From an uncultured Nitrosomonadales bacterium (GTDB lineage Bacteria; Pseudomonadota; Gammaproteobacteria; Burkholderiales; Gallionellaceae), in contig CAIOKY010000013.1 in NCBI GenBank assembly GCA_903858965.1, positions 1 to 40,616 on the forward strand: DNA of 40,616 bases. Direction: 5' to 3'. Of this stretch, positions 19,220 through 22,103 are shown piece by piece. The translations under genes and the position numbers were made by a program. How positions within the stretch are numbered: the stretch's first letter is position 1; each line of letters opens with the position of its first letter. The notes under the pieces are model-generated. The model was not told the DNA's origin. It saw nothing but the letters and a program-made list of their open reading frames with translations, and ran no database searches.

Positions 19220-20002
19220 TCAATGTATGCCAGAAATTGTACAGGGGACATTCTTCAACTCGCTTCCGGCGAAATCTTTCTGCATTGCGGTCAGTTTTGC
19301 CGCGGTCGTTGCGTCTATCCGGTTAAGCCTGAATATGGTGGCCTTGAGCTTGCTCGCGCGTTCACCGACCTTTGCCGAGTGAACTCCCTTGGTGCGTAAG
19401 TGATTGAGAAAATTCTGCGCGGCTTCCCGTGTCTTGAATACACCCAGTGAAATGGCATTGTGCCAACGACCCGAGACCTGGACAATAAAGTACTCGCGGA
19501 TACCCAATGCCTTGAGCTCTGCAACTTTCCGGTTGACCGCGGTTCTGTTCTTCAATGGCGGGATATAAACCCAATAGCCTATGTCGCGTTCGACCTGGCG
19601 TTAGCTCAATCTGTCGCCGAGATGCATGGCAGACAATGCAGCCGCGGAACGCGCGAGATCCGGCCCCGAAAAATCGCCCCACTCCAGACAGGTCAGCGCA
19701 GTATTGCTGCTTGCTGGAGCTGACATGCTCAACGTCATTTGCAGGTTCGAGGGTGCTACGCGTGGTGTGCCAACCGGAACGGGAGCCGACACAGGCACGG
19801 ACAAATGAGCTGGTGCGACAGCTGGCGCAGCAGGTATCTTGGCCGACACGCTTTGTGCTGTGTCCAGCAAACGGATCATTTCCCCATGCAGCGCAGGTTG
19901 TGCTTGGGGGTCCTGCTCACCCCACCCCAACCATCCGCGCTGCATCGCAGCGAATAGAAGTACATTGGCCAGCAATAATATCCAGAACAGTTGTCTCATC
20001 AC
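19220..20002 (-). pseudogene. SPOR-domain protein gene interrupted by one in-frame TAA
   Basis: One reading frame runs from ATG 20002 to 19220 but has a TAA at 19603-19601. Before the stop lie a membrane anchor (about residues 4-20), a Pro/Ala/Val-rich linker and CLEWGDFSGPDLARS. After the stop, in the same frame, come RQVERDIGYWVYIPP and a SPOR domain (WHNAISLGVFKTREAAQNF, KVGERASKL). In homologues as I remember them a glutamine sits at the stop, so one CAA-to-TAA change would explain it. SPOR domains bind denuded peptidoglycan at the septum. Readthrough, restart at the TTG at 19555, or a sequencing error remain possible. The ATG overlaps the coaX stop by four bases (birA-coaX-SPOR operon). 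Confidence 0.85.
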
Positions 20003-21105
20003 GCGCCCGTTTCTTGAGAAATCAGCAGCAATCCTTGCAAGACAAGATCATCCACGACATTCAACGGCAAATTGATATGCGGCCATGACACGGTGGGGTA
20101 CAACCCTCCGGTGCGGGAATGGTCGCCTTGCACCTCCTCCCGCGATCGGCTGGCTTCGCCATAACCAGCGACTCGGCGAGTGTAGCTGGCTCGCCTAGTC
20201 GATTGGCTAGTGGCTTTATCAGTAACGTGTCGGAGGTGCGCTTGCAATACACCCGCCGCGCCGCCACTCAATACCACCGGCGTGCTATCATCTTCAAGCA
20301 ATACATATTGCCGTTCGATCGCACCGCAACAAGCCTGGATCGCCCCGCTGAACAGCGCATCAGCGGTGTTCAGCGGGAACGCCGCATATTTTCCCTGCGC
20401 CAGTTTCAACTGATTTGTTGCGGCCACCAGATTGCGCTGCATCAGCTCCATTCCCGGCAGGATCAACCCGCCAAGAAATCTCCCTTGCCCGGACAAAGTG
20501 TCTATCGTGATTGCCGTGCCACAATTCACTACCATGCACTTGCCACGTACCAGATGCCATGCGGCAACCAAGGCCGCCCATCTATCGCTGCCCAATTGTC
20601 CCGCATTGGCATAGCTGTTATGCACGCCACATTGCATATCCTTGGCCACGATGAAATTAATCCGGCCTGCCTTGATATTTCGGATATGCCGCGCAACTTC
20701 TTCACCGGCGACATTGCTCGCCCATATTTGTTCTATCTCTTGCGAACCCGGCTTTTGAGAATTTGGAAAAATCCCGGGTAACTCGCCTGCCTGCCCGACC
20801 GGCAATACGCCGTTGCGCAGCCATCCATCGCCGTCCGCCTCCGACACGTTACTGCTAAAACCACTAGCCATTCGACTAGGCGAGCCAGCTACACTCGCCG
20901 AGTCGCTGGTTATGGCGAAGCCAGCCGATTGCGGGAGGAGGCGGGGGGACGGCATTCCCGCATCATAACCATCGACTTGGACAGCGTCTTTTGATGGCCT
21001 AGTCGAATGGCTAGTAGTTTCACCAGACGCTTGCGCGCGCCGTGTCGTACCGTCCACCAAAGCCCACTTGATGCGCGTATTGCCCGCATCGATCAGCAAC
21101 TTCAT
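19999..21105 (-). CDS. coaX: Type III pantothenate kinase with two repeat-derived insertions
   Basis: Phosphorylates pantothenate, the first step of coenzyme A synthesis. Core motifs are intact: LIDAGNTRIKW (residues 4-14), GSDRWAALVAAW, VNCGTAITID, GGLILPG and LSGGAAG. The 368 residues are about 115 more than the usual roughly 250. The excess is in two places: about residues 20-91, between ALVDG and DGWLRNGVLPV, and about residues 300-345, between LQAHL and PLNVVDD. Both contain copies of one 127-bp palindrome-rich element, inverted relative to each other and read through without a stop. The first insertion lies in a loop after the phosphate-binding motif and the second before the last helix, so activity may survive. 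It overlaps birA and the SPOR gene by four bases each. Confidence 0.93.
   Translation of the reverse strand: MKLLIDAGNTRIKWALVDGTTRRAQASGETTSHSTRPSKDAVQVDGYDAGMPSPRLLPQSAGFAITSDSASVAGSPSRMASGFSSNVSEADGDGWLRNGVLPVGQAGELPGIFPNSQKPGSQEIEQIWASNVAGEEVARHIRNIKAGRINFIVAKDMQCGVHNSYANAGQLGSDRWAALVAAWHLVRGKCMVVNCGTAITIDTLSGQGRFLGGLILPGMELMQRNLVAATNQLKLAQGKYAAFPLNTADALFSGAIQACCGAIERQYVLLEDDSTPVVLSGGAAGVLQAHLRHVTDKATSQSTRRASYTRRVAGYGEASRSREEVQGDHSRTGGLYPTVSWPHINLPLNVVDDLVLQGLLLISQETGA
20112..20238 (+). repeat. 127-bp palindromic element, copy A (inside coaX)
   Basis: Aligns base for base, without gaps, to the reverse complement of 20836-20962. The core 20131-20238 (108 bp) is nearly identical to the other copy, and the outer 19 bases are more diverged but keep TGCGGGAATG. 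Internal pairing includes CACCTCC/GGAGGTG at the core ends and ACTCGGCGAG/CTCGCCTAGT (9 of 10) in the middle. It is read in the coaX frame as a segment containing TSQSTRRASYTRR, and its other strand is also free of stops in one frame. Confidence 0.85.
20836..20962 (-). repeat. 127-bp palindromic element, copy B (inside coaX, inverted)
   Basis: The inverted partner of 20112-20238. Core ends are CGCCTCC/GGAGGCG: the second base pair is C-G here and T-A in copy A, a compensated change. The coaX frame reads it as a segment containing SAGFAITSDSASVAGSPSR, i.e. the strand opposite to the one translated in copy A. The TGCGGGA/TCCCGCA hairpin at the outer end is complete here. Confidence 0.85.
20975..21026 (+). 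repeat. Decayed third copy of the element (inside coaX)
   Basis: 20998-21026 matches the right part of copy A/B with 3 differences in 29 bases against B. After an 18-base stretch with about half identity, TGGTTATG-like sequence recurs at exactly the expected spacing (CATAACCATCGACTT versus CATAACCAGCGACTC). It has the same orientation as copy A and is read in the same frame (TSHSTRP versus TSQSTRR). It adjoins copy B head to head. Confidence 0.6.
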
Positions 21106-22103
21106 CTCCGCACTCCCACTTCCCCAGAATTAAAATATCGTATTCCCTGGACGGTTTCCAAACATAATTCTCCGCTATCGCTGATCCCGCGCGCCACTCC
21201 ACTCACCGTCGAACCATCCGGCATATGCAATTTAATGGGCTTGTCCTGGTAGGCATGGTATTGCTGCCATTCATTGCGCAATGCAGAAAAACCATCCCGC
21301 GCGAACTGTCGCAACACACTTGCCAATTCTTGCAATACCACGGCCAGCAACTGATTGCGTGTGGGCATCGGTGCGCACACTTCGTCCAGCGCGCTGGCAG
21401 GTTGATCGATCTGGCGCACCAGATCGGCCGGCAATACACAATTCAAACCGATGCCTATCACTACCGCGCTCGGCCCGAGCATATCGCCCTGCGCCTCGAT
21501 CAGCACCCCGCCCAATTTTCCCTGTGCGGTCAAAATATCGTTCGGCCATTTCAGTTGCACGCCCTGCGCATCCAGTCTATTCAAAGCGCGCACAATTGCA
21601 ACGCCTACCGCCAGACTCAATCCGGACAGGGCATTCAGCCCACAATCAAAACGCCACAACAGCGAAAAAGTCAGCGAACTACCCAGACCGGAATGCCAGG
21701 TTCGCCCCATCCGGCCGCGCCCGGCAGTTTGCAATTCCACTGCCAGCACGCTGCCACCGGGCACTCCCCCGTTTGCAACAGCCAGTCCGCCACGCTGCAA
21801 CAACAAGCTGTTGCTGGAATCCGTTTGCGGCAGTATTTCAATATCGAATTGCCCGGCATCCCTGCCCAGCCAGCGTAATATTTCACCACGATCCAATCGT
21901 TGCCACGGACGCGCCAGACGATAGCCGCGACCGCGTATCCGCTGCAAGGCCACGCCGAAATCCGCAACATCGGCCAGCGCATTGAACACACTGGCGCGCG
22001 ACACGCCGAGCTGGTCTGCCAGTATCTCGCCTGAATGAAATTCGCCATCCGCCAGCAGATCCAGCAACCTCCAGGTCCGCGCGCTGAAAGTGCCGGCGGT
22101 CAT
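21102..22103 (-). CDS. birA: Bifunctional biotin--[acetyl-CoA-carboxylase] ligase / repressor
   Basis: Activates biotin to biotinyl-AMP and attaches it to the carrier protein of acetyl-CoA carboxylase. In BirA proteins with an N-terminal DNA-binding domain it also represses biotin genes. The 333 residues show a winged helix (about 8-65, LGVSRASVFNALADV) and the catalytic domain with GRGRMGRTW near residue 128 and KWPNDILTAQGKLGGVLIEA near 190-210, then the C-terminal SH3-like domain. Its stop overlaps the coaX start and its start overlaps the patatin gene stop (ATGA both), giving a tight operon. Confidence 0.96.
   Translation of the reverse strand: MTAGTFSARTWRLLDLLADGEFHSGEILADQLGVSRASVFNALADVADFGVALQRIRGRGYRLARPWQRLDRGEILRWLGRDAGQFDIEILPQTDSSNSLLLQRGGLAVANGGVPGGSVLAVELQTAGRGRMGRTWHSGLGSSLTFSLLWRFDCGLNALSGLSLAVGVAIVRALNRLDAQGVQLKWPNDILTAQGKLGGVLIEAQGDMLGPSAVVIGIGLNCVLPADLVRQIDQPASALDEVCAPMPTRNQLLAVVLQELASVLRQFARDGFSALRNEWQQYHAYQDKPIKLHMPDGSTVSGVARGISDSGELCLETVQGIRYFNSGEVGVRR

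Follow-up and report, generated by a model that had tools for sequence, protein, structure and literature searches.

Palindromic elements derived from IS200/IS605 have hairpin ends, and their cleavage sites pair with short stretches inside the element; they move without target duplication. The RPEs of Rickettsia are palindromic, measure 105–146 bp and lie in frame within conserved protein genes as well as between genes (PMC2229807; PMC10969869), and Table 1 of the former enters their target duplication as '?'. The same source lists ERIC, Correia (NEMIS) and YPAL as small non-autonomous repeats with in-frame ORF fusions and target duplications, gives terminal inverted repeats for Correia and ERIC and none for YPAL, and mentions a YPAL copy that contributes part of a signal peptide (PMC2229807). 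A preliminary description of the locus studied here had known in-frame palindromes from Rickettsia; according to a survey of intragenic REPs, which are often dimers and lie in many cases in DNA repair genes, they occur in Thauera, O. terrae, R. conorii and others, and intragenic palindromes outside Rickettsia had thus already been described (PMC3733652). As intragenic RPEs and REPs have both been reported, the kind of element is therefore known. Thauera is itself a betaproteobacterium. A literature search, with most subscription papers beyond its reach, found no description of such elements in Gallionella.

The window analysed here, the whole stretch of 40,616 nucleotides from a Gallionellaceae genome, holds at 19999–21105 on the minus strand an open coaX frame of 368 amino acids that matches Pan_kinase of Pfam (E 2e-43) in two stretches. 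Within this frame the preliminary description had placed the same 127-bp sequence twice, in opposite orientation and read through without a stop, in a protein about 115 residues longer than its family norm. The inverted pair is real and near-identical rather than identical, as a repeat search gave copies of 125 nt, 2 bp shorter than described, at 20112–20236 and 20838–20962 with 90% complementarity; a shorter third copy of the inner part lies at 20964–21026. The frame does run open through the copies. The protein is indeed longer than its relatives, by 126 residues, which the alignment resolves into 73 and 53 codons that coincide with the repeats, as had been proposed, and that are missing from relatives. 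The 73-residue gap at the N-terminal site, seen against five relatives since a sixth reference starts past it, corresponds to 219 bp (99+60+60), and the 53-residue gap at the C-terminal site, seen against six relatives, corresponds to 159 bp (99+60).

Where one element in two copies had been described, two elements were found, one nested in the other. Element A is a hairpin, usually of 60 bp, with the sequence TAACCAGCGACTTGGC...GCCTAGTCGAATGGCTAGTNGTTTCATCA. Element B consists of a part c1 (ACACGGTG...GGTGCGGGA), a variable centre of 18–20 nt and a part c2 (TCCCGCAATCGGCTGGCTTCGCCAGTAACGTGTC), where c1 is approximately the reverse complement of c2. In each of the two coaX B copies c2 contains an A, and c1 of the N-terminal B contains an additional one, which accounts for two big copies and a small third one. 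The features are as follows.

19999–21105, minus strand: coaX (type III pantothenate kinase) with two B insertions and three A, from the ORF, Pfam and alignment
20078–20087, plus strand: first copy of the TGCG direct repeat (20078–20081) and B left arm GCCATG (20082–20087), with a putative arm/repeat boundary
20088–20231, plus strand: B core of the C-terminal site (c1, centre, c2; one A), with a net insertion of 159 bp including arms and repeat
20160–20222, plus strand: A in c2 of the C-terminal B (covariance model R1, E 2.5e-25; element proper 60 bp)
20232–20240, plus strand: B right arm GGAGG (20232–20236) and second copy of the TGCG direct repeat (20237–20240), with a putative boundary
20831–20842, minus strand: B right arm GGAGGC (20837–20842) and direct repeat copy GGACGG (20831–20836), with a putative boundary; the coaX of locus L056 is similar
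20843–21045, minus strand: B core of the N-terminal site with one A per half, net insertion 219 bp (99+60+60)
20852–20914, minus strand: A in c2 of the N-terminal B (R1, E 2.9e-26)
20964–21026, plus strand: third A, in c1 of the N-terminal B and in the orientation opposite to its host B (R1, E 2.8e-23)
21046–21055, minus strand: B left arm TACG (21046–21049) and direct repeat copy GGACGG (21050–21055), with a putative boundary

Inserts were visible by eye in this CoaX and in those of L056, L058 and L081, out of 36 translated CoaX loci. L056 has a B at the same N-terminal place, without A, and L058 a remnant there, indicating that the N-terminal insertion is old; L081 has a solitary A at a different place. 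The L056 copy, from a related species, contains a different GC-rich hairpin repeat (L056:1615–1670), and B therefore seems to be a landing place for several repeats. A search of 19900–21200 against Rfam gave no match at E≤1, and the AlphaFold model of CoaX was unusable (mean pLDDT 35.9). As an example of a predicted insert peptide, LPQSAGFASNVS would, if translated, be joined to CoaX or RecG sequence.

Two large copies that lie inverted, 601 nt apart, within one gene might be explained by a local inversion or duplication of a native coaX segment, with no mobile element involved. The arms and centres nevertheless differ between the two coaX sites, and the repeat-free CoaX proteins aligned, in which the preliminary description had allowed that the same extra segments might be found, have neither of them. 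There are also matches on other contigs of the host genome, a draft of 2.22 Mb in 160 contigs that is 95% complete. At E≤1e-3 the 127 bp query had 19 matches in this genome, itself included, with E 5.9e-45 for the second coaX copy and 3.3e-30 for the highest-scoring one elsewhere, and a covariance model of A gave at least 29 matches at E≤0.01 (27 with values under 1e-7), a lower bound as 150 of 847 candidates were scored. In a first sample the coaX repeat was present in at least 23 of 25 genomes of the genus and, among the matches listed, in none of 16 from other families. B was found in at least 48 of 76 genomes of the genus, which are drafts and formed the scope of the B search. The covariance model identified A in at least 31 of 399 sampled genomes of the order and at least 14 of 158 genera, and A therefore extends beyond the genus. 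The coaX copy had no match among phage and plasmid records, and the exact A pattern matched one viral contig.

The coaX repeat is thus real and one of a genus-wide family, with many other copies in the host genome and the genus; the dispersed copies, together with the empty sites given below, support the original suggestion of an RPE-like palindromic element inserted in frame. The same two lines of evidence already refute local inversion or duplication, to which we assign practically no probability. Our preferred reading, which we hold to be quite probable, is that coaX was hit twice by B as a small non-autonomous palindromic mobile element and that three A landed inside those B copies.

A measures 60 bp in 78 of 101 copies and 54 bp in 16, and its length is divisible by three in 97. 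The nucleotide A precedes the element in 97 of the 101 copies and G comes after it in 88. In 39 aligned copies 97.5% of the stem cells were paired, a score favoured by a structure derived from the same alignment, and 27 double changes were counted in comparison to 7.3 in shuffled data, where none of 500 shuffles was as high. The net length of 60 bp was confirmed by one filled/empty comparison, of the same B with and without A between species, and no target duplication was seen at A. A fixed place inside c2 holds A in 23 of 97 copies with distinct flanks. We infer that A would be mobilised separately from B, with a preferred site A|G, one such site lying inside c2. A general targeting of hairpin loops by A was considered and rejected, as the stem across the insertion had a length of 2.45, no longer than the 2.62 in shuffled data (74 A copies away from the fixed place in c2). 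Some A copies do sit within other repeats; A adjoins or sits in another repeat, CCGTTCGNNCTGA..., at L011, L013, L017, L019, L037 and L042, where the copies at L013, L017 and L019 lack their 3' part. In the minus orientation A can provide an apparent start codon and the basic n-region of a signal peptide (MKQLAIRLG...AKSLVI, followed by a hydrophobic stretch and AHA), as observed in a cytochrome c gene at L121 (contig C105 of the host genome) and in a viral-contig gene at L322:5590–5700.

B can fold as two hairpins, in which each outer arm pairs with one half of the centre. We examined this pairing at 81 independent sites, clusters of 157 copies with distinct flanks that were drawn from loci chosen by BLAST rank and by pattern and do not amount to a census; 58 sites were assigned by their centre sequence to four sub-families made for this analysis (F1–F4) and 23 were unassigned. 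The left arm (8 positions) and the first half of the centre formed Watson-Crick pairs in 92.3% of cells in comparison to 59.1% in shuffled data, with 166 double changes against 49.6. The corresponding values for the right arm (8 positions) and the second half were 84.0% against 54.8%, with 136 double changes against 47.1. Without a bulge the right stem has five or fewer of 8 pairs at 26 of the 81 sites; in the largest sub-family it is interrupted by a bulged A, and when this is allowed at least 8 of 9 positions are paired at 24 of 25 such sites. Within the four sub-families 55 cells had changed on both sides without losing their pairing, where 500 shuffles gave a mean of 13.0 and never more than 24; 39 arm/centre cells were broken and 673 unchanged, and as the B sites are related these double changes are not independent events. 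Arm and centre of B consequently change together both between and within sub-families.

Such co-variation is expected if movement depends on the fold or on base pairing between centre and target. The same pattern would result if, once B is inserted, one side were converted to fit the other. Candidate cores (GTGG, TGCG, GCCGC and GGACGG) differ between the sub-families whose centres differ, and single copies that deviate in the arm from their sub-family mostly have a matching change in the centre. This could be interpreted as a centre with two short complements of the insertion core, one per half, that reads the target, such that B would be a tiny guide-directed insertion element carrying its own address, a reading that we consider quite unlikely; if it were true, B would be re-addressable via a change of about 8 + 8 nucleotides. 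In the phosphoglucomutase-like gene the target strikingly resembles the left arm, a likeness that was not upheld as a general one, since none was present in the columns to the right of the core at 27 F1 sites.

At least nine empty-site comparisons gave the net length of B. It was 99 bp at five sites, namely the N and C sites of CoaX (after subtraction of the A copies) and DapF-, PrlC- and RecG-like genes, 102 bp at one (a phosphoglucomutase-like gene) and 96 bp at three, an RlmN-like gene, an FAD-dependent gene (L187 in comparison to L175) and an intergenic site (L163 in comparison to L132). The last site measured 95 bp when L163 was compared with L119/L012. Empty sites for the RecG- and RlmN-like genes came from genomes of 92–97% identity. 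Among the matches listed for the phosphoglucomutase-like gene, where 27 of 29 loci fetched were counted, 24 read empty and differed by 102 bp from the filled query, and three were filled (one with B, two with B and A). Core lengths of 82 (two sites) and 85 (one site) occurred only among sites not classed as genic, and the codon-multiple length of B may be partly a selection effect. A tandem pair of B, about 15 nt apart, was observed at L160:1400–1620; the related locus L048 is arranged differently, with A, and was rejected as an empty site for L160 as it has a B there.

Direct repeats flank B at single sites, with TGCG and GGACGG in coaX, GGTG in RecG and GTGG in the phosphoglucomutase-like gene. 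Over the 81 sites the longest string common to both flanks averaged 4.79, in comparison to 4.13 when left flanks were exchanged within groups, and none of 1000 such permutations reached the observed value. This signal largely rests on the 23 unassigned sites, which are heterogeneous; for the remaining 58 the averages were 4.95 and 4.63 (10 of 1000 as high), and among single sub-families F2 alone stood out (133, 24, 165 and 434 of 1000 permutations as high for F1, F2, F3 and F4). The repeat varies in length from 4 to about 10 bp and may be in part element-borne. B probably duplicates its target, but this cannot yet be taken as a general rule, in part because all members of a sub-family have the same core. 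Duplication of a full 15 bp was dropped as a candidate, since within sub-families much of the 15 bp is constant arm.

B might be an IS-derived MITE of a DDE transposase that is absent from these genomes or unrecognised in them, with a centre that is merely an inner inverted repeat. The short direct repeats visible at single sites, though modest by permutation, its dispersed copies, a length too short to encode a transposase and the inverted halves c1 and c2 are consistent with this explanation. The variable length of the direct repeat argues against it, as do arms that differ between sub-families in which c1 and c2 are alike and a pairing that runs from arm to centre rather than from end to end. 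As to the terminal inverted repeats that a MITE shares with an autonomous IS, c1 and c2 of B are inverted halves with varying outer arms, and an autonomous partner was sought via PF01797. We regard a MITE origin as possible, if on the whole unlikely.

A further alternative is that A and B belong to the REP/REPIN type and are mobilised by RAYT (TnpA-REP, a Y1 transposase). Inverted hairpin pairs of small size agree with it, intragenic REPs are known in other bacteria (PMC3733652), and RAYT-like PF01797 genes were detected in at least 63 of 76 genomes of the genus. Against this, PF01797 had no match in the host genome (a 95% complete draft), and in 30 RAYT loci read from a much longer list there was no complete A or B by pattern, with four loose partial matches; a RAYT gene flanked by the repeat, as in REP families, was not found in these 30 loci, most RAYT genes lying outside that set. 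The ends of B also had no conserved tag, with left/right counts over 81 sites of 3/1 for GTAG, 1/4 for CGTC and, for their reverse complements, 0/3 for CTAC and 7/6 for GACG, and of 101 A copies 46 had GTAG on the 3' side and none on the 5' side; an unpaired GTAG or CGTC at one end was thus not a conserved feature of the 81 B sites or the 101 A copies. We judge RAYT-driven movement to be distinctly improbable. No transposase was found by the PF01797 search of the host genome or in the 30 RAYT loci read.

Our preferred reading of B as a mobile element was further considered from the side of the genes that carry it. Fifty of the 81 B sites are in frames open for at least 60 codons on both sides, some of which could be chance as the test uses open frames only, and seven are in frames open for fewer than 20. 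Elements lie in frame in the host genome in RecJ (twice), FadD, TilS, uracil-DNA glycosylase, EarP and CoaX. Pfam was applied to the longest open frame at 20 of 32 host-genome sites, and besides CoaX a domain spanned the insert in five of the 20 (RecJ, FadD-like, TilS, uracil-DNA glycosylase and EarP), nothing was found for seven, and in other frames the domain lay beside the insert and did not span it. As for RPEs, insertion is therefore in frame in protein genes of unrelated function. Elements are near the N-terminus of an FAD-dependent protein and of QueE-, PrlC- and GlnD-like genes of the host genome, and at L131/L137 (contig C96) the N-terminal region of the QueE-like gene holds a B with two adjacent A copies. 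Gene names in other genomes were recognised from translated sequence.

The consensus sequences of A and B are each open in three of six frames, and the inserts use several frames and both strands. Frames with inserts stay open across species, with differences mostly at the third position in the two genes tested; three species sharing an insert differed at the codon positions by 89/60/225, 83/58/216 and 89/63/235 in the first gene and by 14/8/42, 9/6/30 and 16/3/31 in the second. From these patterns the carriers look like working genes with a long-standing insert. Insert residues at one site are nearly the same in the three species, and two signal-peptide-like sequences take their start and n-region from A, which could suggest selection of the inserts for their use as protein modules, in the form of added loops or signal-peptide starts. 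The use of several frames and both orientations, the existence of the same genes without inserts in relatives and the several intergenic copies make this explanation very improbable, and the predicted insert peptides would most likely be tolerated passengers.

A mechanism for our preferred reading can be proposed in which an enzyme supplied in trans would recognise the constant c1/c2 hairpins and the pairing of arms with the centre would bring the ends of B together, to be joined into a target that offers the core. Such a recombinase might act in trans on a folded single strand (or an RNA copy) and leave a short direct repeat; what we infer here includes the enzyme, the form of the strand and which of centre and target shapes the other. 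Many B hits in tolerant parts of proteins would survive due to their whole-codon length and three open frames, so that what is seen may be what selection let pass. The family may serve as an independent test case outside Rickettsia of palindromic selfish DNA that adds peptides to housekeeping proteins, where insertion rules, tolerance and loss are measurable because filled and empty orthologs occur side by side in related genomes. The linked change of arm and centre also provides a testable suggestion on how small elements choose their sites.

By analogy, A and B would work like RPEs and intragenic REPs; what looks new is the nesting, the whole-codon lengths and the joint variation of arms and centre. 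A resembles the IS200/IS605-derived elements in the lack of a target duplication, whereas B seems to have short direct repeats, and no Y1 transposase was linked in the 30 loci. ERIC, Correia and YPAL differ from B in that B has constant loops and variable arms. The GTAG/CGTC REPs are likewise palindromic repeats within genes, but the units here are larger, and neither a conserved tag nor, in 30 loci, a neighbouring RAYT was found. With the RPEs, likened by description and not by sequence, A and B share a palindromic structure and an occurrence in frame within genes and also between them. The net length of B, which is 96–102 bp alone and 156–162 bp with one A, lies just outside the range of 105–146 bp for RPEs, and the present family differs from RPEs in its host lineage, in comprising two elements with A often nested in B, in arm-centre co-variation and in its empty sites.
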